Source: Simmondsia chinensis
Taxonomy: Eukaryota > Streptophyta > Magnoliopsida > Caryophyllales > Simmondsiaceae
DNA: 64,000 nt
Direction: 5' to 3'
NCBI GenBank assembly: GCA_018398585.1
Contig: JAGTTD010000001.1
Location: 24,621,438 to 24,685,437, forward strand
Positions 473 through 62,757 of the stretch are shown in pieces. The notes under the pieces were generated by a model. The model saw nothing but the letters and a program-made list of their open reading frames with translations, made no database searches and was not told the origin of the DNA. How positions within the stretch are numbered: position 1 is the stretch's first letter; the number at the start of each line of letters is the position of its first letter. The position numbers and the translations under genes were made by a program.

Positions 473-1405
473 TTGACTGCCTTGCTCAAGGAGTATGGAA
501 AATTGTTCGAGCAACCAGATACATTGCCACCCAAGAGGGAGCTTGATCATGCAATTCCCTTGAAAGAGGGGACTGATCCTGGGAATTTACGACCCTATAG
601 ATATCCTCATTCACAGAAGGATGAAGTTGAGAGACAAGTTGAGGAGTGGTTGAAAACAAGATTCATACGACACAGTCACAGTCCCTTTACCTTTCCTGTG
701 ATTTTAGTGAAGAAAAAGGATGGAACTTCTAGAATGTGCATTGATTATCGACAATTGAACTCTCACATAGTCAAGGACAAGTTTCGCATTCCTATTATTG
801 ATGACTTGTTGGATGAATTGCATGGAATTTGGTATTTCTCTAAATTGGACTTCAGGCAGGGTTATTATCGGATTAGAGTTCAAGAAAGACATCTATAAGA
901 CAGCTTTTCGAACTCATCAAGGGCATTAGGAATTTGTGGTGATGCCCTTTGGACTGTCAAATGCACCTTCAACATTCTAGGTATTGATGAATCTTGTATT
1001 CCAGCCATATTTGACAAGTTTGTGGTAGTAATTTTTTATGATATTTTGGCCTATAGCCCTACCGTGCAGAAGCATTGCTCCCATCTTGAACTGGTTTTTC
1101 AATCCGTGAGGCAACACAAGCTTTATGCAAAGTTGTCTAAATATACCTTTGCTAAGACACAGGTAGAATATCTTGGCCATGTTATTTCAGGAGTGGGTGC
1201 TGCAACTGACCCAAGCAAAGTACAAGCAATGAAGGATTGGCCACAACCTAAATCCCTCAAGCAGCTAAGGGGGTTCTTGGGGTTAACAGGACATTACCGC
1301 AAGTATATAGGTGGCTATGGCATTAGTGCCAAACCATTAACAGATCTACTGAAGAAGATGGGTTCATATGGGATGATAAAGCAAAAGAAGCTTTTGAACG
1401 CTTGA
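473..1405 (+). pseudogene. G1 reverse transcriptase remnant
   Basis: Two open stretches (473-898 and 1022-1405) carry the Gypsy RT palm. Seen in order: the LPPKRELDHAIPL entry motif, VILVKKKDGTSRMCIDYRQLN, KLDFRQGYYRIRV, then a frame break near 897-1020. After that come the polymerase box and HKLYAKLSKYTF, and LKQLRGFLGLTGHYRKYI. The catalytic F-F-D-D-I-L box reads F-Y-D-I-L (about 1033-1050), so the first aspartate is lost. The family copies element RNA into DNA; this copy cannot. Frame breaks plus the lost Asp make pseudogene status firm. Confidence 0.9.
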
Positions 1406-1429
1406 AGTAGGCTACGACTATGGCTCCTG

Positions 1430-1840
1430 TGCTTGTGATGCTGATTTCAGCTTACCCTTCTTGTTGGAAACTGATGCTTGCAGTACTAGTATTGGTGCAG
1501 TGCTTTCTCAGAATGGAAGACCTTTAGCTTTTCTTCGTCAAGCTTTGGGTCCTAAGAATCAGAAGTTCTCTATTTACGAGAAAGAGTATATGGCTATACT
1601 CCTAGCGGTTTAGAAATGGCGGTATTACCTTGAGGGACATCAATTTCTGATCAAGACAGATCACCAAAGCCTCAAGTATCTACTTGAGCAAAGAATTTCG
1701 ACAAGGGTTCAAAGGAAAGGGCTAATGAAGATGCTGGGGTTAGAATATACAAATTAGTACAGAAAAGGGGCTGAAAATGTTGTTGCTAATGCCCTTTCTA
1801 GAAGATTGGAGGAATTGGAAGGTGATCAATTTCTATGAGC
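1430..1840 (+). pseudogene. G1 RNase H remnant
   Basis: Translation gives LLETDACSTSIGAVLSQ, then YEKEYMAILLAV, W-RYYLEGHQFLIKTDH and SLKYLLEQRISTRVQRKG, which is the Gypsy RNase H domain directly after RT. It ends in a NVVANALSRRLEEL-like stretch. In-frame stops occur at about 1611 (TAG before KWRYYL) and 1755. The first catalytic Asp (TDA) is present. The domain normally degrades the RNA strand of the RNA-DNA hybrid; here it is a frame-shifted relic. Confidence 0.85.
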
Positions 1841-1939
1841 ATGATGCTTTTGCTCAGGCATGCATTGTTCCCAATAGCATACACGCTAGTTTTGACAAAA
1901 CTGATTCAAAGGTGATAGTGAGCAATGGAATTGTTTGAG

Positions 1940-3200
1940 TTAAGGGCAGAATTTACATTGGTGAAAGCCAAGGACTGAGAAAGCAAGTCATCAAAGCTTC
2001 ACATGACTCACCATAGGGAGGCCACTCCTATATAGAGGGTACTTATAGAAGAATGAAGCTATATTTCCGGTGGAAGGGATTGAAGAAAGATGTGCAAGAG
2101 TTTGTGCGGCAATGTAAAGTTTGTCAACAGAAAAAAGTTGAGCATACTCCCTATAAAGGGTTGCTGCAGCCACTCCCAATTCCGGAGAGAGCTTGGGCTC
2201 ACATAAGCATAGATTTTGTGGATGGCCTGCCTAAGTCAGAGGGAAAACAAGTCATTTGTGTGACTGTTGATCATTTCACCAAGTTTGGGCACTTTGTTGG
2301 TCTCCGTCATCCCACTGCCGCAGAAACGTTGGCAAGATTGTTCTTGGATCAGGTGTATTGGCTTCATGGACTTCCTTGGTCTATTGTTTCTGACAGAGAC
2401 AGGTTGTTCACAAGTTCTTTTTGGCATCAGTTGTTTCTATTGTTAGGCCCCACATTGGCTATGAGTTCTTCGTACCATCCGCAATCTAATGGCTAGAATG
2501 AGAGGGTTAATCAGTGTATTGAACAGTATTTGAGAGGGATGACATTTACTCATCCTAGGCAATGGTACAAGTAATTGGCTCTTGCTGAGTATTGGTACAA
2601 TACTCATTTCCACTCATCTTTAGGTTCAACACCTTTTAAGGCCTTATATGGGTATGAACCACCATCTCCTTTGGTACAACAAGGAATGATTTCTCATGTT
2701 GCTGGAGTAAATGAGTTGCTGCTACATAGAGCTCAGTTAACACGGCAGCTCAAGGACAATCTTCAGTTGGCACAAGCGAGGATGAAGTTTTTTGCAGATA
2801 AGAAGAGGATTAACCAAAATTTTGAGGTTGGATATCTTGTTTATCTCAAGTTGAAACCATACAGGCAAAGTTCAGTGGCTATTCACCAAAACCTCAAGTC
2901 ATCAGCCAGGTACATTAGGCCTTATAAGGTTCTGGAGAGAATTGGCAAAGTAGCCTACAGATTAGATCTTCCATGTTGCTTTGCTTAAGAAGTATGTGCC
3001 AGATAAAGTCAAGGAAGTCATTGATGTTTTCCAAGCTTCCTCCCAAGGTGAGTTGATTCAAGAACCTGTAGCCATCTTTCACAGCAAAGTGGTGCAGGAG
3101 CATGGCATTGACAGCCAGTAGGTGCTGATACAGTGGGCTAATCTTTGTCCTGAAGGTTCTGCACGGGAGAGCTAGAAGTTTCTCAAGTCTCAATCTCCTT
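1940..3200 (+). pseudogene. G1 integrase with chromodomain-like tail, remnant
   Basis: The zinc-binding HHCC region is degenerate at its start, with CKVCQQKK intact at 2116-2139. The DDE core shows SIDFVDGLP (first Asp) and IVSDRDRLFTSSFW (second Asp). The glutamate segment reads SNG-stop-NERVNQ, keeping E but losing the preceding Gln to TAG (2494). A stop at 2572 precedes the ALAEYWYNTHFHSSLG block. A frameshift near 2975 leads into the LLKKYVPDKVKE... chromodomain-like C-terminus with VLIQWANL (about 3121-3145), in which a stop lies just before VLIQW. Chromodomains of this group are thought to steer integration to marked chromatin. Confidence 0.88.
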
Positions 3201-3242
3201 CCTTCTATTCTTGAAGCAAGAATGTGCTTGAGGGGAGGGTAT

Positions 3243-3643
3243 TGTCATGATCAAGACTGATTTTAATTGGTCATGTCGAGCTTTTTAGCAATTGGCGGGA
3301 ATTAGTTGCAATTGAGGTTCTTTTGCTTTTGGCGGTAAAGTTAGTTGTTGGTTAAAGTCTTATTTTGCTCTTAAGTCAATTGTGGCGACTGGTTCAGGTT
3401 GTTTTAGTCGGTTAGTTGCAATATTGGAGTCCAGATTCATTGTTTTTGATTCTATCTTGTAACTAGTATAAATAAGGGATTGGTTGTAAGGTTTGATTCA
3501 TTGAATGATAATTGATTGACATTTTCTCTCTCTCATCTAAACTCTCTCTAATTTCTCATCTCCTTCCCTTCTTTTCTCATCTAAACTCTTCCGTATCCGA
3601 TCCAAACCTTGGTTAAGATTCAAGATTGAACTTGAATCATAAC
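3243..3643 (+). repeat. G1 3' LTR with polypurine tract
   Basis: The LTR begins TGTCATGATC right after the purine-rich tract GAGGGGAGGGT (3230-3240) and ends CATAACA at 3643, giving TG...CA ends and 401 bp. A TATA-like AGTATAAATAAG lies at 3464-3475, where the U3 promoter is expected, followed by a CT-rich leader. The ends were set by the tract, the TG/CA rule and likeness of the CATAACA end to the G3 and G5 LTR ends. The partner LTR is outside the window. Confidence 0.85.
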
Positions 3644-3981
3644 AAAAAGTTAATTTTTTAACTACAAAAATTATTTTTAAATATTTATAATTTTTTACAT
3701 ATTTATATCTTTAGATATATTAAAACTATTTAAAAGGAAAATTTTAATTCCTATATATTTAAAATTTGATTTATGAGTATTTTATACATTTAAAATTGTT
3801 GTTAATATATATTAAATTTATTTTTAAATGAAATTTGAATTTTTAAATTTTTAAATTCAAATTTATAAATGTTCAAGATATTTAAAATTATTTTAGTAAA
3901 TTAATGAATATTAGTAGTTTTAACATTAAACTGTAACATTGAAAAGTAGTACGTATCATCTATTTACTATTTTGATTTTGC
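3644..3981. other. AT-rich module, first copy of a local duplication
   Basis: No reading frame or RNA gene is seen. The sequence AAAAGTTAATTTTTTAACTA and the following 300 bp recur in diverged form from about 4455 to 5090, interrupted there by another insert. This looks like an old duplicated non-coding repeat. Its class is unknown. Confidence 0.5.
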
Positions 3982-3998
3982 TATATTAGTTTTATTCA

Positions 3999-4256
3999 GA
4001 GGATTCGTTTAATAGGCGCAAAGACACTGGACCACATTAGAACTCCGAAGTTAAGCGTGCCTGGGCAAGAGTTGTACTAGGATGGGTGACCTCCTAGGAA
4101 GTCCTCATGTTGCCAACCCTATAAGGTTGGGGGTCCTTGGTAAAAGCCTTTCAGTAAGGTTACACCCTGAAGGGGTAAGGCTGCGTACATCCACCCTCCC
4201 CCCCAGACCCCGCTTAGGCGGGAGCCCTTGAGGCAATGGGTCTCTTGTTGTTGTTA
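3999..4256 (+). mobile_element. SINE with 5S rRNA-derived head and plant Angio-domain tail
   Basis: Positions 4001-4120 align end to end with plant 5S rRNA at full length (120 bp). Highly conserved blocks are AGTTAAGCGTGCCTGGGC and GGATGGGTGACCTCCTAGGA. From 4121 the sequence changes to a plant SINE body with AAGGCTGCGTACATCCACCC (4177-4196), CAGACCCCGC and GGCGGGAGCCC, ending in a (TTG)n tail. A perfect 17-bp duplication, TATATTAGTTTTATTCA, flanks it (3982-3998 and 4257-4273), so the chimera moved as one unit by retroposition. Plant SINEs normally have tRNA heads. LINE machinery acting in trans would have mobilised it. Boundaries are set by the duplication. Confidence 0.92.
4049..4100 (+). 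promoter_or_regulatory. 5S-type internal RNA polymerase III control region of the SINE
   Basis: Box A (4049-4066, AGTTAAGCGTGCCTGGGC) and box C (about 4080-4100, GGATGGGTGACCTCCTAGGA) have the positions and nearly the sequence of the plant 5S rRNA gene control region, which binds TFIIIA and then TFIIIC. This implies a type 1 promoter, not the tRNA-like type 2 promoter (A and B boxes) of ordinary plant SINEs. Present activity is not known. Confidence 0.8.
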
Positions 4257-4489
4257 TATATTAGTTTTATTCATGTAATAAATATAGTATATGAAATATT
4301 AAATTATATTATAAAGTAAGTTAGTTAATATAGAGAAATTATTATTATACAAATTCTTATGTTATATTGTTGTATGATATCCATTCGTTTTAAAATTTTC
4401 AATACTACACTTTAATGTAATACCCTTAATATATGTTAATTTTTATTGAAGATTCATTTAAAAAGCTAATTTTTTAAGTACAAAAATTG

Positions 4490-4561
4490 TCTTTTAAATA
4501 TTTATAAATATTTTACATTGAAATCCTTGTTTAAAAAAAAGGTCCTCAGGGTTTTCATTGA

Positions 4562-4620
<59 letters not shown>

Positions 4621-4879
4621 GAGCGCATCTTATGCAGCTTTAGATAGGAAACAATATCATAAAATCACTCTTTCCAACCTTTTCCCTTCGACTAAGACAT
4701 TGCCTTTCTATTGCATTTTAAGGCTGTTCACATTTTAGTTGCCAGGTTTGAGACTCTATTCCCTTCGTCCCACATGACAGGGAAATTTCTCAAGGATTCT
4801 AAACCTTTTCTAGCCTCTTCTTCTGGGCATATGACTTAACACAAAACTTATCTTTTAAATATTTATAAATATTTTACAT
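4490..4879. other. Insert of unknown origin flanked by a 29-nt direct repeat
   Basis: An identical 29-nt AT-rich direct repeat occurs at 4490-4518 and 4851-4879. Between them (4519-4850) is DNA of different composition that interrupts the second copy of the AT-rich module. The insert begins with TGAAATCCTTG, holds a 54-nt G run and continues with mixed-composition sequence without stop-free frames or familiar motifs. The flanking repeat could be a long target duplication or repair filler. An organellar origin is possible but I cannot recognise a gene. Confidence 0.55.
4564..4617. repeat. 54-nt poly(G) tract
   Basis: An uninterrupted run of 54 guanines lies between CATTGAGA and CACGAGCGC. Runs of this length are very rare in plant nuclear DNA and hard to clone or sequence. 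It is either a real G-tract able to form quadruplexes or an assembly or sequencing artefact. Confidence 0.95.
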
Positions 4880-5157
4880 ATTTAAAATATTTTTAGATAT
4901 ACTAAAGTATTTAAAGGAAAATTTGAATTTTTTATATACTTAAAATTTGATTTATAAAAATTTTAGATATTTAAAATTATTGTTAATATATATTAAAATT
5001 ATTTTAAAGTAAAATTCAAATTTTGTAGATATTTAATCAAAAAATTTATGAAATATTTTATTAGTCTACAGGTTTTAGATATATTTAATGATTATTTGTT
5101 GTTTTATTATGGGTAATCAAACTAGAAATTATGGTCTGCACTACAGTGACATTATTG

Positions 5158-7544
5158 GGTCATTATGATGGAAATACGATGCAAAATATTGATGGTGTTG
5201 ATTACATGGGTGGAAGATAGTTTGTACTCAGGGCACGAACTTGAATTTCACTTGCTGAGTTGAAGGGGATGATGCATGAAGCTATTGGGTGGGATAGTAA
5301 CACAACTGAAATAGTGATTATATGGAGAATATTGGTATCCGAAAATCCTATGCATTATGCACCTATTAAGATCACTTGTCCAATGACTTTGAGGTCTATG
5401 TTTTGAAGTGGCCTTAGAAAGTAGGGCAACATGCATAGAATTACATGTAAATGATGTAGATGTTGCAGACAGATCTCAACATCATGTACCTCATTTTCAA
5501 TTTGATGCTTCTGGTCTGTCTAGAAGAGCTTCTGGCCCGTCTAGAAGCCTTGATTTTGATGTTTCATTGATAGATGGAATCATTTCAAATGAGACAAGAA
5601 GTATTTTTGATGGGGCTTATGCCAACAATGATTTCCACCCATCTGATGACGATGTAGATGTTGGTATTGATGCTTGTGAGGCTATACCAAATAATGCTGA
5701 CAGGCCTACAATTACCTAAGCCCCTGTCCCTGAGTTTGAAGATGTTAGTTAGGCAAACTAGGCAGTATATTTTGACTGGGAGGCAAGTAGAAGATAGAGA
5801 ACCATGGGATCTAGCTTGAACCAAGGTCTATTATTCTAAACAAATGATGAGCTAGTCCATGCAGTAAGCTTGTCGCAAATTAAGAGAAAACTGCAATACA
5901 CGGTGTACAAGTCGACGCCACAATTTGTAGCCCTAAAGTGTGTGCAAGTACCACAATGTGAGCGGTATCTGCATGGGGCACTCAAACGAAGGACGTGGCC
6001 GTTTGAGATATTGTTTTTTAAAGGGGCCACATACATGTTCTACCACTGTATTGGAAGAAGACCACCGGCTCCTGTCCTCCAAAGTTACTGCGAATATGGT
6101 GTTAGCTATTATTACTGCGGATCTTACGCTGAATATTAAAGCAATCCGAGTAGCAGTGAGACAACAACATGGGTACACAGTTTTGTATTTCAAGGCATGG
6201 AAAGCTAAGCAACAAGTGCTTGAGTAGTTGCTTGGCTCCCGTGAGGAAGCACTTTTGATGCTAGCAAAGCTTCGCAATGCGTTGAAACCGTCAAATCCAG
6301 GCACTGTTGCTGACTTGCAGTTAAATAGGCAAGCAACTGGTGAAGCACTATTTGACAGTGTTTTCTTGGCATTTGGGGGATCCACAGAGGGGTTCAAGTG
6401 TTGTCATCCCTTCATCAGTGTTGATGGTACCCATTTATATGGGAAATATATGGGGAAGTTGCTAGTTACAGTTGCATTTGATGCCAACAACAGTCTATAT
6501 CCATTGTGTTTTTCTTTAGTGGACGAGGAGAGCCCATGGACTTGGACTTAGTTTCTGCAATGTCTACGATCCTATGTGAGAGATGGGTGCTTCTTGATGT
6601 GCATAATTTCTGATCGACATGCTGGAAAATAGAATGGGATGTTTGCGATATGGCCTGTGCCTGTAGGGTACCATCGGTATTGCACTCGTCACCTTGTTTG
6701 TAACTTCAACCACAAATTCAACAATCCTACCCTAAAGAGAAGGTTGAGTTTGATGGCAAGGGAACCTTCTGAGAAGAAGTTCGATGCTTGGTATGATCAA
6801 TTTATCCACGTTAATGATGACATGAAAGAGTGGATCATGAGAGAGCTGAAAGAATGTTAGGCACTTTCGTGTGATGGTGGTTATCATTACGGTAACATGA
6901 CCACCAATTTATCTGAAGTATTCAACGGTGTTCTAAAAGGCAAACGAGTGCTCCCAGTAACTGCCCTTGTGCGACTAAAATTTTTTAGATGCAACAAATA
7001 CTTTATCAACCGCAGGGATTTTACTCGGGAGTTCCTTTCATGGGGTGCTCCATGGCCACCCACAATCTTCATTGAAATAGAGCAAGCCACCATAAAATCG
7101 AGACACCATCAGGACGTGCTGTTTGATTGAGATACCATATGCTTTTAGGTAACAACTATGCTTCAGACTGAAGCAGGCTTAAGAGGGGAGATTCGCCATA
7201 CTATAACATTGACCGAATAGAGTTGCACTTGTGGTACATGTCAACTGTTTCATCGCTCATGTTCACATGTGATGGCATGGTTTGCAGCATTTAAGATCGA
7301 ATATGGACAATTTGTTGATTTGTTGTATATCCCTGACATGTACGCAAGCTCGTATGCTGCATTGTTTCACCCTCTTCTTGATCAATCTCTATGGATGGAG
7401 TACACTGAGCCTACATTGGTTTCAGATCACACTAGGTGGAGGTTTGGTAAAGTACGACTAAAATCAACCTGGTTACAGAATGAAATGGACTTTGGGGAGG
7501 GCTCGTCCAAAAATAAATGTAGTATATATGGTCAGGGAGGCCAT
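5158..7544 (+). pseudogene. MuDR-like Mutator transposase (mudrA type), decayed
   Basis: The reading, spread over several frames, follows MULE transposase. The N-terminal region has LKGMMHEAIGWDSNTTEIVI-like sequence (about 5260-5325), then an acidic linker with a DDDVDVGID stretch. The DDE core shows ISVDGTHLYGKYMGKLL (about 6415-6465, first Asp) and CIISDRHAGK (about 6600-6630, second Asp). Next come GYHRYCTRHLVCNF (6667-6708) and the N-L-S-E-V-F-N block. A SWIM zinc finger, SCTCGTCQLFHRSCSHVMA, lies at about 7220-7277, and a degenerate zinc knuckle, CSIYGQGGH, just before the A-run. Stops include 5717, 6225, 6548, 6630 and 6858. The family cuts and pastes DNA between terminal inverted repeats; this copy is inactive. 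Confidence 0.88.
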
Positions 7545-7566
7545 AAAAAAAAAAAAAAAAAAAAAA
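7545..7566. repeat. 22-nt poly(A) run
   Basis: A run of 22 adenines lies directly after the GGCCAT of the transposase zinc knuckle, replacing its expected second cysteine. It looks like slippage expansion of a lysine-coding A-rich stretch, since the knuckle is normally followed by basic residues. Confidence 0.9.
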
Positions 7567-8038
7567 CCGGTCCTATTAGACAATGTTGCTTTTGTAATTA
7601 AGTTCATATCTTGATAATTTATTTCATTCTTTATTGTGATTTTGTAATAAAATGTAATATTAGCCATTGTAAAAACAAATCAATGTGACATTGTTATGGT
7701 ATATGTAATTTTATTTATTGGACTATTTTAGTAAATGTAACTTTCATTTTAGACCAATAATAATTTGGTGCTTATGTCCTTTTATGGTCAAACTAGATAC
7801 TATTTTAAATGTTATTAGTGAAACGGTAAGTTCATGAGGAGCACATACATCTGGTGGTACCGGTTTTCTTGAACACAATCCGAGTCCAGACACAATTCAT
7901 TGCTATGTCTTCAAGACCAACATTGGTAAGAGGATGTTTGGGTCTATGCAGTATGTTAACAATTTATATAATTCCATAATACATTATATTTTAATTATTC
8001 GGATAGTTGAGTGATATATCTGATGTCTTGTTTTGCAG
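7567..8038 (+). other. Spacer between transposase and PMD pseudogene
   Basis: AT-rich DNA without a clear frame. The segment 7947-8038 starts near GCAGTATGTTAAC and ends TTGTTTTGCAG, which reads as a decayed plant intron ending at the splice acceptor of the PMD exon. Upstream exon sequence, if any, is not recognisable. Confidence 0.4.
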
Positions 8039-9470
8039 GGCGACGACAAGATCAGGGTGAGGCACCATCATCCGTTATCCCTTCAAGATAGAGTACGACC
8101 TTATATCATTCAGGCCAGTATCATTGGATTGACCCAGATAGGTCATATATGAATTGATAACTGTTTGATTAGTGCTTTGTTGGAGAGGTGGAAGCGAGAG
8201 ACTCACACATTCCATCTACGTGTTAGTGAGATGATGCCAACACTACAAGATCTAGCCTTCTAGCTAAGTTTACCAATACACGGCATGACAGTCACTAGTG
8301 CCTCAAATTATTATTAGAAGGACGAGTGCCTGCAGTTATTGTGTGCAGCTCCCTCTCTTAAGTTGTTGAAGGTGGCATGATCGTAAATCAAAGGTTGAAG
8401 GAACAGTTTCAACATGAACCCTCAAATGATGCTGACAAGCAAGTGCTGTTGCAACAGGCTAGGGCTACATCCTCTATTTGATCGGCTATGTGTTGTTCAC
8501 CAACAACACTAGTGATCGAGCACCACTCATCTTCCTCCCATTGCTCGAGACGACGGAGGAGTGTAGGTCACACAGCGGGGGCTCAGCAGTTTTAGCCGAC
8601 CTATAACAAACAAGTGTGTTGAGATTGCATGAAGGGCACCCAGCAACTCGGCTGATGTATTTCATTACCGCAGGTATGAACCATAATGATATTCATGTTT
8701 AATTTTTAAATGTGTTGTATTCCTAATTTTTTACACTTATCATTTGTAGCTATGATCGTGGGGGCACTTACACATCAGACAACCAACTGTCACTGCCCAC
8801 CATCAATAAGTTGTGCTTAGTGTTCCAATGCTTCCATTGGGCACTCGATTAGAGAAAATATTTCGTAAATCTTACTTTAATATATATGTAATATTATGTA
8901 CATATTGTAATATAATTTACTACAAATTTAATCAGACAGGTTGCCGCATATACATTCCGCGAGAACACAAGGTATTCTCAGTCCTTTTACAGAGACCAAC
9001 TTGATGTCCAAGAACCTCATCAACTATATAAGTGAAAATAGACATATTTTTTTCATTTAATATTTAATATAATGACCAAGTTATTTTTTCTGTTTGCTAG
9101 GTTGATTGGACGTCGTATCGGCAACCTCGGTTAGCCTCTTTGCCCAAGATTTGTTTCGAGGGTTGGCACATCTGGCAATATGTAGGACCCCTGACATGCT
9201 TTGACATTGTCGAACTAAATTGTCCTTACAGAGTGTTGCGTTAGTTTGGACTAAGGCAGCATGTCCCAGATTATGTCGACACACTCAACTCTCTACACGA
9301 TACATCTCGTCGGGGCAGGTCCGACGAGATTGGGCTGTCTACCATGCCAACTGGATCGAGGTGTGGAATGCACGAATGCACCGTATTCCCTACGAGCGTA
9401 ATCCTTTGACATTGCCTATTGAGTACATGAAATCGTATCTATCTATCACTAGGTGTGTCATCACATAGCG
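8039..9470 (+). pseudogene. Plant mobile domain (PMD, MAIN-like) pseudogene with introns
   Basis: Exon-like blocks translate to the PMD of the MAIN/MAIL1 and PP7-long type. [20 protein letters not shown] with TLQDLAF and LSLPIHGMTVT lies at about 8173-8302. YRDQLDVQEPHQLY lies at about 8985-9030. VDWTSYRQPRLASLP, then CFEGWHIWQYVGPLTCFDIV and ELNCPYRVLR, lie from 9101, and WIEVWNARMHRIPY at about 9351-9392. Clean GT-AG introns are visible at 8674-8749 and about 9032-9100, with an acceptor at 8938-8939. Stops in the exons (8149, 8262, 8479) make it a pseudogene. It lies on the same strand about 0.5 kb after the Mutator transposase. PMDs are known both in host proteins and in Mutator and Gypsy elements, so it is probably element cargo. 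Confidence 0.8.
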
Positions 9471-10330
9471 TGAGATGCATATTCCGCGCCGCTCTTGGCT
9501 TGGTTTTTACCTAAGTGGCAACCGTCTTCAATGAGTAGTATGTACTTTGAAAATATTTATTTTCTTACTTATTCAATAGTACATTTTAATGACATTTATA
9601 AGTAATACGTGCTACGTCGATCTTGTTACCAATCAGACTCAAAGAGCAGCCTGGGCAGTATGTAACAGTGTTGGCCACACTGTATAGTTGATCTCCACCG
9701 ATTGGCTTACAGGTTGTAGTAGCATACTAGAAGCTGCTGGTGAGGAACACCAATTTTGTTATATCCCACAATAAGAAGGTGCTGACTACCGTTTATTTAA
9801 TCACGCGGAAGGAAGTAGATGTAGAAGTCGAAGTAAACGTCCTCCACGACGCAGTTTTTTGGTTCATTGGGAGTTCACAGTCTCATTCGTAGATGATGGT
9901 GAACCTAGTCATAGATCCACGTCACAATTTGCACTATAATTTACATTATTTATTTATATTAATTATTTTTATATTTTTAACATTTATTATGAATTATTGC
10001 TCAGGAAGGGGGAAGTCACAAGTTGCTTTGGGAAGGGGAAGGAATGTGGCAGGGAAGGAAAAATGGTGCCTATTGGTAAAATTAAAGAAAAATTTAGGGA
10101 GGTGAAATTTCAATAATTTTACACTCAGAGACGTTGTTTAAAACGGAGCCTCTATTAATTTTACAATAGATGCTGTTTTAAATGGCTCCTTCTTGTTAGA
10201 GACGCCAATTCAAATGGCGCCTACACACTTCTACTTACACACTGGGTCATTTTGCTAAATTTTTTCGGAAATAGGTCACTTTTCTAAATTTTTTTTTTAA
10301 ATAGGGTACTTTGCTAAATAATTCCTATTT
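9471..10330 (+). other. Probable 3' non-coding end of the MULE-PMD unit
   Basis: After the last PMD exon there is only short basic and arginine-rich coding-like sequence (about 9800-9870), then AT-rich DNA. From 10128 come three imperfect palindromes. From 10233 there is repetitive TTTGCTAAAT / TTTCTAAATT sequence up to about 10330, resembling the low-complexity ends of plant MULEs. I could not find the matching inverted end upstream of 5158, so the element boundary is not proven. Confidence 0.4.
10128..10221. repeat. Three imperfect palindromes near the MULE-PMD end
   Basis: Three related units, GAGACGTTGTTTAAAACGGA (10128-10147), GATGCTGTTTTAAATGGCTC (10169-10188) and GAGACGCCAATTCAAATGGC (10199-10218), share the plan GACGCC-(A/T)n-GGCGCC. 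Each is a small hairpin with an AT centre. They may be subterminal sites of the transposon. Confidence 0.5.
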
Positions 10331-11094
10331 TCTGGGATGCCTTTAGGCTTCTATTGGGGAACAAACTGGTAAATTGGGTGGCTGCATAGGGTTCGATTTG
10401 ACAAAGTTCGAGAGTTTCTAAGGAGAGAATTCGTACGCACATTCATTAGTTAATTCAAATCAATCGCTAGACCTTTTTAACTTTGATTATGAAACCTTGT
10501 GTTCTCCTAATGTCTCTACAATACAAATTTAATTGTATCTAATCAATTAATTTGGATATTAGACAATAATTATATATAGTAAAACAATAACTTTGGGTAC
10601 TGGCTTGTAGGATTCCAATAAAATATATGTTTGCAGCAAGTCTTATTATGCCACATTTGTACGAATTTGACATAAATGGGATCACACGGCAAGAATGTTT
10701 AGTCCGATCCAAAAGGGACTTATTGTGGTGAGATAAGTTTGATCGCAGTAGGCCTAGTCCATATATCGCCTGTTGCAGAAAGTTGTAGTCAATGTATTAG
10801 GCATGGTCCAATTAAAGTTGGCCGTTATTAAGTATTGTACAACCATGCAAGCAGTGACCGTGAGGGGTTCTGTTGATTACGATATACGCAAGGACATGGA
10901 TTGATGAGTACGACCTTGTGGTGACATAATGTATTAAGTGGAAAAGACAATATCGGTCCCATGGAATTCACATATCCACTACATAATGTAACTTAGATTC
11001 GTAAGTTCATCAGAAAAATAATAGAATGGAGCGTCATGACTAAAATTACGATAAAATTGTATGAGAATTGCTATTCGAAAAATACGGATGATGT
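10331..11094. other. Unassigned sequence
   Basis: No conserved coding frame, RNA gene or repeat structure is recognisable on either strand. It lies between the presumed MULE end and the truncated Copia gag, so it may be older flanking DNA or decayed Copia gag. Confidence 0.4.
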
Positions 11095-12341: not shown

Positions 12342-13927
12342 TGTTGGGACAAATTTGAAAAATTTTCCCTAAGTAATTAGATTAATGTAGCAGAACAGTT
12401 TAAAATTCTGATTTTTAACCTACAGGTGATTTAAAACTCATAATTTTAACGCTACAGACTTAAAATTCCTAATTTTAAATCTACAAACCTTTACTCTAAA
12501 ACATTCATAATAACAACATGAATATTAACTAGCATAATAAAAATGTAATAGATAATAGAAAAGCAAAAACTAAAAGTAAAGGAAAGAAAAACACCCGCAA
12601 ATTACACCAACAAAGAAAAACCGAGACTCGGAGAGCTTCTATGCAATCACCTCAAAAACCTGGAGTGTGGGCTCTGAATAGTATTAAACTAAGAGAAAAA
12701 ATTTCAACAGAAATTTTCCCTCTTTTAGTTCTCCGAAACTCAACACTTTTAGAAAACGTTTAATCCATAAATTAATGCTAAACCTTAATTTTAGTACCCT
12801 TATTTATAGTAGGCTACTGGAATGTGAAAAATCACAAAAACCAATGTGGAATACCCAAAAATAAGCCAAAATGATGTCGTTTCTTTTACCCGGCATAGAA
12901 ATGGCTTGCTCCACAAGCTAGCGCCATCGTGGTGCGCGCTCGATCGCGTCGATCACTACTTGTGACCGTGTTGCTCTCCGATTGGCCCGTACTAGGGCAC
13001 GCGAATCCCCAGCCTATCCAGTCATCACAGGAAACGTGTCGCACCGTGAATGGCTGTGCACGTAGGTGCATGGATTACTATATTGTTCAACTTTTGTTTT
13101 TGTTTTTGTTTTGTTTCCCACAAGTAAAAATCCATCTCATGAATTTTAATTTAAAAAACAAAATTTATTTTTTAATTTTAACTTTTGTTGATCTATTGAA
13201 TAATGTTTAGAAAATTTAAATTTACTCATCTCATAAATAAATAATTCATCTCATGAATTCTCTAATATTTTCTGATGGCATTTAAAATGGAGGCATGCGT
13301 AGGGCCTCATGGACAATTTAAATCTAGCTCCAAACGGTTAAATTAATTACCATCTCATGATAAAATTTAATTACCATTTAATGAGACTTAATTCTACTAA
13401 ATAAATGCCACTATACTCTAGACTTAAATTATTTGCACGATAACTCCTAAATAGATTATATTTACAACGACAACCCCTCTATATGACATCCATGAGGAAA
13501 AATAACTATAAATACTACCATTATTTTTCTTAAGGCTTTTCCTTTACTTCTCAACTTGCCCTTTTTCGAATAATTTATTTATACTTGAACAAATTTGCAG
13601 TACAAATTCCAAATGTCAAACACTTGGAACACTTTGGCCAAAGTTTTCGTATTAATTCAAACATTTGCAAATCAACTAAGGAGACATCTGTATATCGTAA
13701 GAGACTACAGATTCCATAATGAATACCTGATTCTTGTCACACTTCATGCCGTTACCCAGTGCGTGTGGGACTTAGGCCATTTATTAAGACCTTACCTACC
13801 ATGCACAAGTCCAGAATACCCTTAGAATTTCGAGCCGTCGTTCAAATAGTACATCATGAATCACTCATTTTCGACAATAGTGTAGAAATAATTAATTCAC
13901 ATGGTCCAACTCAGTGCATTAATGTTA

Positions 13928-14925
13928 TTTTTTTTTTTGGTAAATCAGTGATAAATACGATATATAATCAAAATATATGTACAAGTCTACGAGAGGCATA
14001 CCCCAAGCCAAGGCCAGAAGGCCTACAAAAAAGAATCAATCAAAGAAAGAATCAAAGCAAGATGTATCAACGATCAACATGATCAAACAGAGAGAACAAG
14101 CAAATGAAGGCAAACAAGCTAATGCTCAATCCCCCACTCATGCAGAAGCTGCGAGTGGCAATGAGCACCGCGAAGTGTAGGGGCAGCAATTAGACGACTG
14201 CGGACCAATCCTGTGATCTTCTCAGTGATGACTGCAGAAGGCCTGGACTGGGACCGATGAATCGTCAGGTTACGCTCATACCAGAGGGTGTAAACCGTAG
14301 CGGAGAAACAAAGGCGGGCAAGAATCCGATCCACCCCGCAGCCACGAAGCCTGGTAGCAGCCCACTGAACCAGCTCGCGCCATGAAAGTGTGGGCCAGGA
14401 AAAAGAGGTGCGAGAGGACACTCTGGACCAAACAGTAGCAGAGTAGCTGCAGGTAAAGAAAAGATGGTCATGCGACTCAACATCTGACCCGCACAACATG
14501 CAAGTAGCCCAAACATTCTGCACACGATGTCTCAGCAATCTGTCAAATGTCTGTAGATGCTCATAGGAGGCAAGCCAAAAAATGAAGGAGTGCCTCGGAA
14601 TGTGAAGCTGGAACCAAAGGAGATGATGCATGGAGTCCTCCTCCCTCCGCCTGCGAATCGTCTCCCGTGTCGATCTAGTGGTGAAAACCCCAGATGGGTC
14701 CCTCATCCATCGTACACTGTCAGCTACCCCTGGTCGGGGCCTAAAGTCAATAGAATCCCAGATAGGAAGAAGCTCCTCAATATCCCATGGGAAACGCCAC
14801 TGATCACCCGCTATAATATCTGAAACTCGAGATCCCAAACGATGACCAGTGGAATGGAGGAGGCGGAAAGTGAACCATTCATATGACCAAGACACATTTG
14901 AACACACCATTCATATGACCAAGAC
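13928..14925 (-). mobile_element. 5'-truncated LINE (L1-type) inserted in Copia LTR 'a'
   Basis: The minus-strand insert ends in a poly(A) tail (T run at 13928-13938 on the plus strand) after a 3' UTR of about 180 bp, and carries the last part of a LINE ORF2. Comparison with the intact LTR copies shows about 30 bp of LTR lost at the site. A 19-nt repeat, CATTCATATGACCAAGACA, occurs at the 5' junction, once in the LINE and once in the LTR. The truncation is typical of target-primed reverse transcription. Confidence 0.82.
14119..14910 (-). pseudogene. LINE ORF2 C-terminus (zf-RVT region)
   Basis: A 263-codon open stretch encodes the C-terminal end of a plant L1-type ORF2. Seen: WDSIDFRPRPG and the WMRDPSGVFTTRS block, LLWFQLHIPRHSFIFWLA (about residues 98-115), the cysteine/histidine pair CMLCGSDVESHDHLFFTC (about 137-154), and a VYTLWYERN block near residue 215. 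These match the zinc-binding RVT-associated domain that follows reverse transcriptase. Endonuclease and RT are missing, so this is a fragment, although the frame is still open. Confidence 0.85.
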
Positions 14926-47675: not shown

Positions 47676-48674
47676 TGTTATGTCAAGGAAGTCATCTATG
47701 ACCGGAATTGGAAACTTGTCTTTTACGATCAAAGCATTCAAACGGCGCTAATTGATGCACATTCAGGCCGTCCCATCCTTCTTCTTAACAAGGATTACGG
47801 GTGAGGCAAAAGGACTTCGGCTCGGTCTAATGAAGCTCAAATGAAGAAGCTCCTCCACTTGTCTTTCTATTTCAGCCTTTTGGCCATGAGGATACCGATA
47901 TGGCCTAATTTTGAACGGATCGGCATCTCCACATAAGGGTATAGCATGATCCACACTCCTTTGGGGTGGAAGACTCTTTGGCTCCTCAAAGATGTCCCCA
48001 AAGTCGTTGATCAAGGACTGCACATCAGGAAGTAGGTCTTGCTGCACCATAACCAAACCAATCATGAACAAGTGCCCGATCCATTGGATCGCCTTCTTTT
48101 TAATTCCGCTTTGCACTCCCTTAGCTTCAATCAATTTGAGCTGAGCTTCCTCGGACATGCCTTGCAAGGACACTTTGACACCATGAACCTCGAATGCCAT
48201 GGTCATTTTGTCAAAATCAAATACAACCGGGTTGAAGGTTCTCATCCAATCGACCCCGAGCACCATATCGCAACCACCCAAAGGAATAACTCTAAAGTCA
48301 AAAGTGAATTGATGGTTTTGTATAGACCTTGGGAATGCTATGAACTTATTTTGAGTTGTTAAGGAGTTACCATTAGCCGCCATTACCGACAAAGGGTGTG
48401 TTTTCGTCACTTTGTGCTTGATCTTCTTAAGCAACTTTGGGTCAACGAAACTGTGAGTGCTTCCACTATCAACGAGACTAATAATGGAGTGTTTTCTAGC
48501 CCGCCCCTTGATTTTGATTGTGTTATGAGCTCCACTTCCGGTTAGAGCTTTCATGAAAATCTCGACCTCATCTTCGCTTGAGTTTCCTTGAGAAATGCAT
48601 TCGATTTCATCTGCATCTGCATCTGAATCGGTACTGTCATTTTTAGCAGGGACTTGGACTCCTTTTGCATACAT
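47676..48674 (-). pseudogene. G4 protease and N-terminal reverse transcriptase
   Basis: A continuous 303-codon frame holds acidic linker sequence, then SIISLVDSGSTHSFVDPKLL with an intact D-S-G active site (about residues 66-85). CDMVLGVDWMRTFNPVVFDF follows at about 134-153. The RT entry SLPPQRSVDHAIPL lies near 239-252 and VILVKKKDGTA closes the frame at a stop at 47763. Beyond it MCIN, a stop, RRLNALIVKDKFPIPVIDD is readable before truncation. Just upstream (about 48680-48730) the knuckle CFRCNQPYQPGHRY has its last cysteine changed to tyrosine. Confidence 0.88.
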
Positions 48675-48782
48675 AAGTGCTTGTGATTTGTACCTATGTC
48701 CGGGCTGGTAAGGCTGGTTGCAACGAAAACAAAGCCTCGCTAAGATTCTGTCACTGTTTTTGATGCTGAAATTTTTGTTCTG

Positions 48783-50042
48783 CTACTGCAAGTGTCTCGG
48801 TTTACTGCTGAGCTGCTTCCCTTTTTCATGTGAAGGGACTTGAGTTGCCTCTATCAAATTTGCCTTGTTGTAAGCACTTGACAAAGTCTTAGGACCAATG
48901 GCTTTCACCATGTTTTTGATCCTAGGCTTAAGCCCACTCACAAAGCACGAGATATAATAGGATTCCGCATCTTCGGGAGCAATGGCCAGAACTGACATCA
49001 AATTGGCTCTCAAATTCTCAAATCTAAGCATGTATTCTCTCACACTTGATGTTTGGGCCAACTTGTTGAAGTTATCCACAACATCCGTTGATTCTTCTTC
49101 TCCATACCATTCACACATCTCTTCTACGAATTGGCCCCAAGAAAGATGTGGTTTGCTTTTGAACAAACTATAGTACCAAATCTCATGATCACCATGAAGA
49201 TGGACTGCGGCCAGCTGAAGTTTTTCCTCCTCAGGAATGTTGTAATATAAGAAGTATCGATCACACCTCCTAAGCCACGATTCCGGCTGCTTTCCATCAA
49301 ATGGATCGATTTCTACCCTTGGCTGCCTATAAGAGCCACTTTTACCCCAATTTGTGTTGTCATTAGTCATGGTTCTATGCTGGAATTGACGATCAGGTGG
49401 TCTATCCCAATGTTCGAAATCATTGGCAGCAATATTTTGATGCATAACAGAATTGTGCGGCCAGTTGTTATGATCTGAATTTTCAACGTATGATCTATAA
49501 TTTAGAGGTCCAGAAGCACGATCTGGAATTTCTATATTAATTTCAAGTCGAACGGATTGTTTTTCAGCTGATCTAATGTCAATTGATGATCCAACAGCAG
49601 GTTGCATCATAGGAGATTTACCTCGAGTTCGCACTCTTTCATCAGACTTGTCTGCACTAGCTTACTACTGATATGCTTCAGCTAATCGGTGTATCTGACT
49701 CGTAGGCTTAAGGATGGCTTTGACACTCGATTCACCTTGCTCGTTAACTTGATCTTGCAAGTGCTCAGTTTTTTCTTTAATCTGCTTCAAGCAGTCATGT
49801 ACTTTCGCATCCTTTGCATCCTTGTCCAACAACAATGCCAGAATTTGATCCATCTTGTGATTAAAACCTTGCTGTAACTCGTGAAGGTCTTCTTTAGTAG
49901 CATTTTGAGGACCGATCGTTGCATTTCCAGTAACAGCAGCTATGAAATCCAAATTTTGACCGGTTACATTTGTTCCACCAGCGCCACACCTGGTTCTTAC
50001 ACCATCGGCCATAATTTTTCCTAATTTTGCTAGGTTAATCAA
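48783..50042 (-). pseudogene. G4 Gag
   Basis: ATG at 50042 starts MINLAKLGKIMADGVRTRCG; MADGVRTR may be the real start. The first frame runs 125 codons with a coiled-coil-like KIKEKTEHLQDQV region. Two adjacent stops (49660-49665) follow, then a 283-codon frame. That frame includes the capsid signature ESWLRRCDRYFLYYNIPEEE (about residues 118-137), HLHGDHEIWYYSLF, FVEEMCEWYGEEES, SSVREYMLRFENLRANLMSV and YYISCFVSGLKPRIKNMVKA. The frame ends at 48783 with TAG. It is nearly complete and close to functional in length. Confidence 0.9.
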
Positions 50043-53406: not shown

Positions 53407-54978
53407 TCAAGGATTAAAAGAAGGAAATTCGCTCAACAAAAAACATCTTTCTTCCCAAGTAGTGAAAGAGTCATCCAGATTGTTCCAAGTCAGTCGAACC
53501 TCTGGTATGCTTGTGTTAATAGCTCGCATCTGCCGGGTCTCCAATACAGCTACAGGTTGCAAAGTTAATGAGCCATTTGAACCAACCTCCGGAGGTGATG
53601 AAGAGGGACTTTGTCCTTGCTTTACCTGCTTTTTGAAAAGAGAAACATGAAAAACAGAATGTATATATGAGTTAGGTGGAAGCTCGAGCTTGTCTGCCAC
53701 TTTGCAAATTCTTTCCAAGACCTTGTGAGGTCCAAAGAACCTCGCACAAAGCTTCACATTCTTCCTCACAGTAGCTGTGGACTGCCTATGAGGCTGCAAT
53801 CTCAAGTAAGCCATGTCTCCCACGTCAAAAGTTCTGTCCACTCTCTTTCGGTCGGCACAAAGCTTCATCCGGGCTTGTGGTTGATGGAGATTATCCTTCA
53901 AAAGTTGCATTTGATGCATGCTTTGCTACACTAATTCAGTAACCTCTGCCACATGTGAAACAACTCCTTGCAACATCGAAGGGGATGGTGGATCATATCC
54001 ATACAAGGCTTTAAATGGAGTAGTGCCTAGAGAAGCGTTAAAATGGGTATTGTGCCAATACTCAGCATACGACAACCACCTTCTCCATACCTTGGGATGG
54101 CTAAACACCATACTTCTAAGATATTGCTCAATGCATTGATTGACCCTTTCAGTTTGGCCATTAGTTTGTGGATGATAAGATGAGCTAAGGGCCAAGGTAG
54201 TTCCCAACAAGCTAAACAACTCCTTCCAAAAATGACTTGTGAAGAGCTTGTCCCTGTTAGAAATTATGGACTGAGGTAATCCATGTAACTTGTAAATGTT
54301 GTCAAGGAACACACGAGCCAATTTTTATGCTGTTACAGGTCGAGCTAAAGCAATTAAATGGCTGAACTTGGTGAACTGCTCAACTACTACCCAAATCACC
54401 TCTTTTCCTTCTAATTTTGGCAATCCTTTTATGAAATCCTTGCTTATGTTTTTCCATAAACCATCTGAAATAGGTAATGGTTGAAGAAGCTCTTGATATA
54501 TATGCTCTCCAAGCTTAGGTTGCTGACATACTTCACAACTTTTCACCAAATCTGTCACTGCCTTCTTCAATCCTGGCTAACTGAAATGAGCTTTGAGCCT
54601 TTGATATGTTCCTTCCACTCCTGAATGGCCACCCCATGCTGCATCATGTGAAGCACTAATAACTTGGTGTCCGAGATCAGTGGAAGTTCCAATGTACAGC
54701 TTCTCTTTGAGTCTGATAATGCCTTTAGCCACTGTCACTTCTGCACCAGAAGCTAAGTTGTCTACCTTTCTAATGCTGGAAGCTGCTATGCATTCTTGTG
54801 AAAAAGGATCATCCACATAGGACTTATGTACCTCTTCAATCCAAGGAGGTAGAATCACTGAAAGTGCCCCATAAGAGCCCTGTTCACAGTCCTCTAATTT
54901 GCGTGACAGAGCATCAGCCGCAGCATTCTCGTTTCCCTTCTTGTACTCGATGTCATAATCGAGACCCAACATCTTCAT
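53407..54978 (-). pseudogene. G5 integrase with chromodomain-like tail
   Basis: The zinc region holds HQVISASHDAAWGGHSGVEG (about 54640-54700) and CEVCQQPKLG (about 54515-54545). The core has ISKDFIKGLPKLEGKEVIWV (first Asp, about 54400-54460), then IISNRDKLFTSHFWKEL (about 54215-54270), in which the second catalytic Asp is Asn. YHPQTNGQTERVNQ keeps the Glu. The C-terminal part has FDVGDMAYLRLQPHRQST. The chromodomain-like end carries LTWNNLDDSFTTWEE (about 53440-53485). Stops at 54574, 54325 and 53926 split it into four frames. Confidence 0.9.
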
Positions 54979-56276
54979 TAGCCCTTTTCTCTGAATCCTC
55001 GTGGCAATTTTCTATTCAAAGAGATGTTTTAGGCTTTAGTGATCATTCTTGATTGTAAAATGGTGTCCATTTAAGTAGTGTCTCCACTTCCCCACAGCAA
55101 GTAAGATAGCAAGATGCTCCTTTTCATATGTGAACAGTGCTTGTTGTTTACGACTAAAAGCTTGGCCGTGATAAGCTATAGGTCTCCCTTTCTGAGACAA
55201 CGCTACCCCAATTCCATTTCCACAAGCATCAGTCTCTAATATGAATCCCAAAGTGAAATCAGGCATAGCTAACATAGGTGCTTTACACATTGAAAATTTT
55301 AGAGTCTCAAATGCCACTTGATCTTCATCAAACCACTTGAAAGCATCTTTTTTCAAAAAATCTGTTAGAGGCTTGGCTATGGCTCCATACTTAGCCACAA
55401 ACTTGTAGTAATATCTAGTCAAGCCCAAAAATCCTCTCAACTGCTTCAAGGTAACTTGAATAGTCCAATCTCTCATTGCTTGGGCTTTAGAAGGATCAGT
55501 AGAAACTCCCTCTAAGGATATCACATGGCCTACATACTCAAAATGAGTCTGTGCAAAGGAACGTTTGGCCAATTTTACATACAACTTATGCTTGCGCATG
55601 ACCATGAACACTTCTCTCAAGTGCTTCAAATGTTCTTCAAAGGAGGCACTGTAAATTAGGATGTCATCGAAAAACACCAACACAAACTTCCTTAAGAACT
55701 GTTTGAAGACATTATTCATGAGGGCCTGGAAGGTAGCTGGGGCATTTGTCAATCCAAATGGCATAACTACAAACTCGAAGTGTCCATGATGTGTTCTGAA
55801 TCCAGTCATGTACACATCTTGCTCCATTACTCTGATTTAGTGATAGCCCTGTCATTGATCAAGCTTAGAAAAGACTTGTGCTCCATATAACTCATCAAGC
55901 AAGTCGTTTATAATTGGTATGGGAAATTTATCCTTCCCTGTCAAAGAGTTGCACTACCTGTAATCAATACACATTCTTGTCGTGCCCTCCTTTTTCTTGA
56001 CAAGAATGATCGGAGAAGCAAAAGGACTGTGACTTTGCCATATGAAACTGGTCTTGAGCAATTCATCCAATTGTTTCTCAATTCCTGTCTTTTGAGCATG
56101 AGGGTACTTGCATGGTCTACTGGCTCTGCATCAGATTTGAGAGGAATAGCATGATCTAAACTTCTCTTAGGAGGCAAAGCCATGGGTAGCTCAAACATAT
56201 CCTCAAATTCATTTATCACTGCTTGCACTTCAGGCTGGGCAATTTTTATAACCTCTATTGGTGATATAGCAAACAA
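54979..56276 (-). pseudogene. G5 reverse transcriptase and RNase H
   Basis: ALPPKRSLDHAIPLKSDAEP opens RT (about 56150-56210). After frame changes (55830-56100) an open 263-codon frame (55036-55827) holds FEFVVMPFGLTNAPATFQAL, the intact polymerase box VLVFFDDILIYSASFEEHL (about 55640-55690), FEYVGHVISLEGVSTDPSKA and LKQLRGFLGLTRYYYKFVAK. It continues into RNase H (FILETDACGNGIGVALSQKG, YEKEHLAILLAVGKWRHYLN). The frame stops at 55036, with RNase H continuing to about 54890 (ADALSRKL). FFDD is kept here, unlike G1 and G3. Confidence 0.92.
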
Positions 56277-61779: not shown

Positions 61780-62757
61780 TTATATGTTGACAATTTGTTG
61801 ATTGCAGCTAAGGACATGACTGATGTTAATACTTGAAAACAATGTTGAAAAGTGAGTTCACGATGAAGGATTTGGGAGCAAGCCAAGAAGATACTTGGTT
61901 TGGAAATCAGCAGGAACCGAAAAGTAGGAAAGTTATACTTATCTCAAGAGAAGTATATTGAGAAGGTTCTGGATCGATTTCATATGAAGGATGCTAAGCC
62001 TGTTAGCACTCCGTTGGCAGCTCAATTTAGGCTTTTTGCATTGGATTCGCTTAGACAAAGGAGAATGTCAGGTACATGTCACAGGTCCCTTACTCTACTG
62101 CAGTTGGTAGTATTATGTATGCAATGATATGCACTCGTCCAGATATTGCTTATGTTGTTAGCAAAGTGAGTAGATATATGACGAATCCAGGAAAAGAGCA
62201 TTGGCACGCTGTTAAATAGATTCTCAGGTACTTACATGGCACTTCTGATGTTTGTTTTGGAGTTTGGGAGGAGTAAATGCTATTTAGTTGGGTATGTGGA
62301 CTCAAACTACGGTGGAGACCTCGATAAGAGGAAGTCTACTTCTGGTTATGTGTTCTGTTTAGGTGACAGTGCTATCAGTTGGAGAGCATGTCTACAGTCA
62401 GTTATCGCACAGTCAATTACAGAGACCGAGTATATGGTAGTGACAGAAGCATTCAAGGAAACTGTTTGGTTGAGAGATTTGATTAGTGAACTCGGTGTTG
62501 ATCAGGGCACAGTTAGAGTCTACTATGATAGCCAGTCTGCAATTCACCTAACTAAAGATCAGATAACGCATCATGACAGGACGAAGTACATTGATGTCAA
62601 GCATCATTTTATTCGAGATATGATAGATGAGTGCAAGGTGGAGTTGAAGAAGATTGGTACTGAAGATAATCCAGTAGACATGTTCACTAAAGTTCTACCC
62701 GACAGTAAATTCGAGCATTGCTCAAACTTGGTAGGGCTCTTAATTTCTGTTTGTTAA
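61780..62757 (+). pseudogene. Tork-like Copia reverse transcriptase end and RNase H
   Basis: The plus strand reads LLYVDNLLIAAKDMTDVNT (about 61783-61840), the YVDD box with the second Asp changed to Asn. It is followed by LKSEFTMKDLGAS, SQEKYIEKVLDRFHMKDAKP and VSTPL (about 61939-62015), then MICTRPDIAYVVSKVSRYMT. An open 173-codon frame (62236-62757) is RNase H: YVDSNYGGDLDKRKSTSGYV, SITETEYMVVTEAFKETVWL, YYDSQSAIHLTKD and TKYIDVKHHFIRDMIDECKV. The phrases fit the Tork group. Upstream domains are absent; 61651-61779 is unassigned joining DNA. Confidence 0.88.

Follow-up and report, generated by a model that had tools for sequence, protein, structure and literature searches.

A probable SINE family of the jojoba genome with a 5S rRNA-derived head and the 3' end of an RTE-like LINE

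A segment of the jojoba (Simmondsia chinensis) genome, 64,000 nucleotides in length (contig JAGTTD010000001.1, positions 24,621,438 to 24,685,437 of the forward strand; hereafter the window), contains a retroposon at positions 4000-4256 that consists of a 5S rRNA head, a body and a TTG tail and is flanked by a perfect 17-bp target duplication. This locus raises the question whether the combination of a 5S rRNA with a SINE-type 3' end is an accident of a single site or the signature of a family, and, in the latter case, where its parts originated. Our best reading is that it represents a new plant SINE family, whose general plan, 5S rRNA plus RTE tail, is already known from the springhare and whose RTE-type tail is known from the tobacco TS element.

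All parts of the unit lie on the plus strand. The left and right target-site duplications (3982-3998 and 4257-4273; TATATTAGTTTTATTCA) are identical at 17 of 17 positions, and the TTG-repeat tail spans 4245-4256, with the repeats proper at 4245-4255; on both counts the preliminary description is borne out. The same holds for its claim of a head that corresponds to 5S rRNA end to end: the head (4000-4123, with both termini altered) was delimited by alignment with array genes and by a match to RF00001 at 4003-4118 that covers model positions 1-120 of 120 with 51.2 bits (cmscan; gathering score 38) and is the only Rfam match in the window at gathering scores. ARAGORN detected no tRNA in the window, and within the window sequence the head is not repeated on the opposite side of the unit. 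The regions of box A and box C of the 5S internal promoter are located at 4048-4063 and 4080-4099, and the block GGATGGGTGA in the box C region has a mean identity of 0.97 to the family consensus. Between the head and the TTG repeats lies a GC-rich body (4124-4244) that is homologous to the 3' terminus of an RTE-like LINE, as found by alignment with one LINE copy (L159) and 16 further ones. The joint between 5S and tail, previously placed at 4120/4121, is real but is better set at 4123/4124, given that the 5S-related part ends at about 4120-4123 and clear LINE 3'-end homology begins at 4124 (AGGTTGGGGG; consensus position 125). Likewise, the Angio-type motif (GGTAAGGCTGCGTACATCCACC, 4174-4195) is present as described but does not directly follow the 5S part, from which it is separated by 50 bp of LINE-related body.

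The surroundings of the element are rich in remains of LTR retrotransposons; open frames at window positions 899-2496, 47763-49661, 53407-55836 and 62182-62757 resemble, by eye, pieces of gypsy- or copia-type elements. The apparent end of another LINE-type frame, without a TTG tail, lies on the minus strand at 13900-14910, and a long run of G (4565-4600) begins about 290 bp past the element.

The genome (831 Mb in 35 contigs, 26 of them 17-50 Mb long and 9 small) was searched for further copies. The family search returned 41 matches at 40 loci including the window, with 40 scored of 6,630 first candidates; the 39 further loci were taken with 300-bp flanks and aligned with the window copy (n = 40), the aligned copies being those chosen by likeness to it. 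The 25-nt junction sequence GTTGCCAACCCTATAAGGTTGGGGG has 823 exact matches in the genome and the 22-mer GGTAAGGCTGCGTACATCCACC of the tail has 1,370 (SINE and LINE tails together), compared with 0 for the reversed control in each case, which excludes chance. Realigned, all 40 copies begin within the first 8 consensus positions. The window copy is a divergent member: outside CpG sites its distance from the consensus is 9.0%, compared with a median of 6.1% among the aligned copies (n = 40), which were chosen for likeness to the window.

Convincing target duplications (score of at least 10) were detected in 22 of 36 copies but in only 0.4% of 1,000 mismatched flank pairings. This test looked for both duplications at fixed places, and four loci (L010, L040, L043 and L046) fall outside the 36; a 12-bp duplication at L040 comes from a looser initial scan that the fixed-place test superseded. 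The duplications are 11-21 bp long; where they are unconvincing, in 14 copies, we attribute this to age. A twin of the window copy, 98% identical and sharing both its flanks and its target duplication, lies on the same contig at a distance of 470 kb (C31:24155783-24156039); the pair is a segmental duplication. Since these two copies share flanks, as do L019 and L025, neither pair is independent, which leaves 21 of 34 independent loci with good duplications that differ from one another. A search for junction copies with different target duplications had been proposed as a check, and the 823 junctions together with these loci provide it.

The number of copies in the genome can be put only roughly, at about 2,500-11,000. 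Capture-recapture put the number at 1,038 (SE 337) for a sample of 77 Mb, which scales to about 11,200 genome-wide, with a tail list that includes LINE tails (5 of 20 sampled plus 1 unclear) so that, at 70% SINE tails, the figure becomes about 7,850; exact counts divided by the rates in the 40 best copies gave about 2,500 and 3,200, which are probably biased low. Searches of viral contigs gave 0 and 0 matches, and the 11 matches in bacterial and archaeal contigs were taken as chance. Separately, C34 has four pairs of matches (near 0.12-1.16 Mb and 40.97-42.00 Mb) whose members score equally or almost so and are separated by about 40.84 Mb; its two ends thus seem to be duplicates of one another across some 1 Mb, which may reflect an unmerged haplotype or an assembly overlap. 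Many decayed pieces of plastid matK are also found in the nuclear contigs.

Two subgroups are distinguishable by variants at both ends of the unit, namely AATGCACC or AAGGCACC in the head and CTTAGG or CTTATG in the tail. The linked types account for 14 and 11 copies and the mixed types for 2 and 0, with 13 of 40 copies unassigned (Fisher p 6e-6), and hence head and tail constitute one unit that was multiplied as a whole. Exact junctions, target duplications and linked variants all support the view that this is a genuine retroposed unit. When only the tail half served as the query, 5S sequence was present in all 30 loci cut (of 40 matches ranked by likeness to the window copy). Among the 39 loci fetched in the family search, RF00001 matched over model positions 1-120 in each of the 20 scanned. 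Truncation within the head also occurs, with loci from the tail-half search starting at consensus positions 21, 32, 37 and 58 and one exact-tail locus starting at 41.

For a different view of the tail, 20 of 100 listed places with the exact 22-mer (of 1,370) were sampled at about every fifth, on contigs 1 and 2 only. This sample comprises 14 SINE-type loci, 5 LINE-type loci and one intermediate (L153). Among the SINE-type loci, 13 have the 5S head (one truncated at consensus position 41, one starting at 11) and are 85-93% identical to the consensus, and one is a tail truncated before the head. The LINE-type loci include 3 with a different upstream sequence and 2 truncated tails of the same second type. 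Two of these three, L142 and L144, have 1.1 kb in common at 93% identity, and 6.5-kb regions there led to an RTE-like LINE with an endonuclease-type domain and a reverse transcriptase in open stretches that lie in different frames. One ORF piece matches RVT_1 with 77.9 bits, above the cut-off; another gives 22.1 bits for RVT_1 and 25.6 bits for Exo_endo_phos_2, both below the cut-off; and there is no RNase H among the Pfam matches of the three LINE pieces scanned. Relatives in the PDB are LINE-1 ORF2p and R2. Sequence features and the TTG tail suggest the assignment of this element as RTE-like. Plant RTE LINEs are said to end in TTG in passages of Ohshima 2013 (PMC3747384).

The last 122 bp of the LINE (L159) align with SINE consensus positions 125-251, the first 26 nt being identical, and the alignment score of 177 compares with a maximum of 49 in 200 shuffles. 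With the last 199 residues of the LINE as the query, at least 150 places were found at 84% identity or above (of 17,077 candidates); in 16 further LINE copies picked by hand from the 150, the SINE-type 3' sequence is at the end in all 16 and TTG repeats close 15. Thus, the unit carries a 3' end that is also that of a LINE in the same genome. The bodies are less alike: the SINE has CTCTCGGCAGGGTTACACCCTGAAGGGG where the LINE copies read have CTCCTTTCCACTCGGAAGGGG or similar, and the exact SINE-type body, CTCTCGGCAGGGTTACACCC, occurs in 0 of the 16. Closer to the SINE body in that stretch are an isolated tail inside L160, L108 and L153. An intact donor lineage is thus not among the LINE copies read, and the donor would have been related to these.

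At the joint, a stretch of about 10 nt (CAACCCTATA) is an exact match to neither module. In 12 of the 16 LINE copies, the local alignment extends weakly into consensus positions 79-119, mostly through GTTTACACACACTTC against GTTGCCAACCCTATA. We read this as chance or microhomology at the switch, but it leaves the joint blurred; microhomology may have been involved in forming the joint.

That the SINE body is identical to no LINE 3' end read is also what one would expect if the family had not acquired its tail from a LINE directly, that is, if a pre-existing tRNA-headed SINE of the Angio or TS type had exchanged its tRNA head for 5S through a template switch between SINE RNA and 5S RNA. SINEs suited to this role exist, namely tRNA-headed plant elements with RTE tails such as TS (PMC3747384). 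No tRNA-headed copy appears among the 30 tail-selected or the 20 exact-tail loci, a number that is small beside the 1,370 tail matches, and the TS-type spelling GGTAAGGTCTGCGTACA occurs once in the genome, just as its reversed control does. We therefore regard such an exchange as rather unlikely. Of the two outcomes that the preliminary description envisaged, a new plant SINE family fits the data; that a known SINE exchanged its promoter is a possible but less likely course, given that the tail has its match in an RTE LINE from this very genome and that no tRNA-headed relative was seen in the loci examined.

The source of the head can be sought among the 5S genes of the plant itself, which form two arrays on C8, with a further match on C29. 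The C8 arrays, at 4.69 Mb and 6.41 Mb, have different spacers, and the genes compared are identical at 120 of 123 sites. The consensus head is identical to the array-1 gene at 112 of 121 positions (93%, with 5 gap columns) and to the array-2 gene at 109 of 122 (3 gap columns); for the head of the window copy, the respective values are 97 of 121 and 98 of 121. Consensus and array-1 gene agree over a 62-nt run that covers the box A region, and CCCATTAGAAC is common to the consensus and the arrays. The consensus retains GGATGGGTGACCTCCTGGGA where the array genes compared carry AGATGGGTGACCTCTTGGGA, so that the 5S sequence may tentatively be considered to have been captured in the ancestry of this plant before the arrays took their present form.

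Both ends of the 5S part are altered, GGGTGCGATC corresponding to AGGGTTCATT and GCACCCCTTTT to GCCAACCCTATA. Of 12 5S genes of the plant examined, 10 end in CCCCTTTT; within the unit, the Pol III stop is missing, with TTTT present in only 1 of 40 copies, and a TTTT is found downstream within 249 nt in 36 of 40. In helix I, pairing is possible between AGGGTT and AACCCT at the two ends of the consensus, and each of the six pairs is retained in 28-36 of 36 copies, which is not proof of selection because the copies are inherited. Folding of the consensus and of the window copy is no stabler than that of shuffled sequences (z of -0.85 and +0.48, respectively).

The 5S sequence in the head could conceivably derive from the LTR of a Cassandra element rather than from 5S rRNA itself, and Cassandra elements do bear 5S sequence in plants, as parts of three articles attest (PMC10853983, PMC10886601, PMC7215508). 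We consider this source very improbable: the head extends over the entire 5S model and has no LTR sequence beyond it, and CCCATTAG is common to the head and the plant's own 5S arrays. As for two independent insertions that adjoin by chance, one of a 5S pseudogene and the other of the tail of a SINE or LINE, or a one-off chimera, nothing speaks for either beyond the modules being separable, and the joint in 823 exact copies, the single pair of duplications that in many copies encloses the entire unit and the linkage of head and tail variants leave them virtually no probability, the junction count being sufficient for refutation.

Taken together, these comparisons make it very probable that the SINE family arose as the fusion of a full-length 5S rRNA with the terminal 125 nt or so of an RTE-clade LINE at its 3' side, born by a jump of the LINE reverse transcriptase. 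The enzyme would have started at the TTG tail, copied about 125 nt of LINE RNA, then switched to a 5S rRNA at its free 3' end and continued through to the 5' end. Such a jump would account for the completeness of the 5S part at its two ends and for the position of the joint at its 3' end. The promoter sequence is retained in the head, and the type 1 promoter of 5S (boxes A, IE and C) could allow Pol III to transcribe the unit wherever it has inserted, as far as a T-run downstream. With the TTTT stop lost, Pol III would read into the tail, and new copies would carry both the promoter and the end recognized by the LINE. The LINE protein is predicted to recognize the common 3' end and to reinsert the unit by target-primed reverse transcription. 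In one copy (L003, C10:19787984-19788290), a tandem duplication covers roughly the initial 60 nt of the 5S head, as if the reverse transcriptase had slipped or jumped. This doubled head and the truncations within the head fit reverse transcription that stops or slips.

The sites of insertion are consistent with such a partner. Plant RTE LINEs and their SINEs show a T stretch about 10 nt before the duplication, which starts with T and then A, as described in a portion of the article by Nakatsuka and Ohshima (PMC13295347). At the 21 independent loci, the duplication begins with T in 17 cases (TA in 7, TG in 7 and TT in 3) and the frequency of T peaks at -9 to -12 (0.48-0.62), with a mean over -14 to -6 of 0.42 compared with 0.31 in the far flanks (p 0.004). 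T is elevated at -1 to -5 (0.41) and at -16 to -20 (0.42) as well; because these neighbouring blocks are also T-rich, the signature is not sharply placed and the resemblance of the insertion sites to the plant RTE signature lends mild support.

There is no plant 5S-derived SINE among the matches listed in the open-licence literature. A 2022 review states, in the section concerned, that plant SINEs come from tRNAs (PMC9033089), and the 5S-headed SINEs on record in the extracts of four articles are from fish, mammals, moths and Aspergillus (PMC3747384, PMC8010984, PMC5063351, PMC10886601). A potato study reports matches between the consensus sequences of nine unknown repeats and non-coding RNAs, 5S rRNA among them (PMC4524691); one of these repeats could be a 5S-SINE, a Cassandra or 5S rDNA. 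A successful 5S-headed family would show that type 1 promoters are used for SINEs in plants, too. Given that the head, the tail, the donor gene and the partner LINE are all in one genome, the birth of this SINE is closely retraceable. The family also hints at a gap in repeat annotation. The program SINE-Finder searches for tRNA boxes. Since, in addition, AnnoSINE drops candidates nearly identical to Rfam RNAs (PMC8825457), 5S-headed families may pass as dispersed 5S pseudogenes.

In comparison with known systems, the family has the attributes of a SINE, namely a short dispersed unit, target duplications of variable length, a simple-repeat tail and a 3' end in common with a LINE of the same genome, and its 5S rRNA-derived head places it in the promoter class of 5S-type SINEs (SINE3). 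The motif TGCGTACATCCACC is present; the Angio-SINE superfamily has a conserved 3' Angio-domain of 37 nt, and the TGCGTACA-type 3' motif of the element is presumably the core of that domain. The families of this superfamily are reportedly tRNA-headed, as Seibt et al. are said to have described in 2020. The tobacco TS SINE and an RTE LINE of potato, each of which ends in TTG, have the 3' end in common; TS includes about 100 nt of the RTE LINE 3' end and a (TTG)n tail (passages of PMC3747384). The jojoba family matches TS in the RTE LINE 3' end and the (TTG)n tail but has a 5S rRNA head, whereas the head of TS is a tRNA with its boxes A and B. RTE-associated SINEs with LINE-shared 3' ends are also described from legumes in a part of PMC13295347.

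The 5S-type SINEs named in excerpts of four articles, i.e., zebrafish SINE3, HaSE3 and PxSE4/5 of moths and AfuSINE3 of Aspergillus (PMC3747384, PMC10886601, PMC8010984, PMC5063351), are similar in their 5S-derived heads and differ in their hosts and 3' ends. The heads of the moth PxSE elements and of those of Aspergillus are, by statements in PMC8010984 and PMC5063351, about 63% and 50-65% like 5S, respectively, in contrast to 93% for the present consensus. Descent looks separate from that of the fish SINE3 and DeuSINE lineage, because the head resembles a 5S gene of this plant at 93% and the tail has its counterpart in an RTE LINE of the same genome.

Cassandra, a TRIM, likewise uses 5S rRNA sequence as a promoter in plants but is an LTR element with the 5S inside its LTRs and with 5-bp duplications, in contrast to the duplications of 11-21 bp and the TTG tail found here. 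A part of PMC10886601 contains the speculation that Cassandra originated when a SINE3 inserted into an LTR, an origin that requires 5S-SINEs in plants. The closest parallel in plan is the Ped-1 SINE of the springhare, which has a 5S rRNA head and a BovB tail (Ohshima 2013, PMC3747384, in the passage on this element) and thus combines the same two parts, a 5S rRNA promoter and the 3' end of an RTE-clade LINE; Ped-1 belongs to a mammal, and an independent origin is presumed. It seems reasonably probable that the jojoba family would be the first plant SINE class to rely on a type 1 promoter (5S rRNA) for Pol III, having arisen in plants by an RTE jump as an independent re-invention of the Ped-1 plan, and that it could serve as a model for the step from SINE3 into an LTR that would have led to Cassandra.
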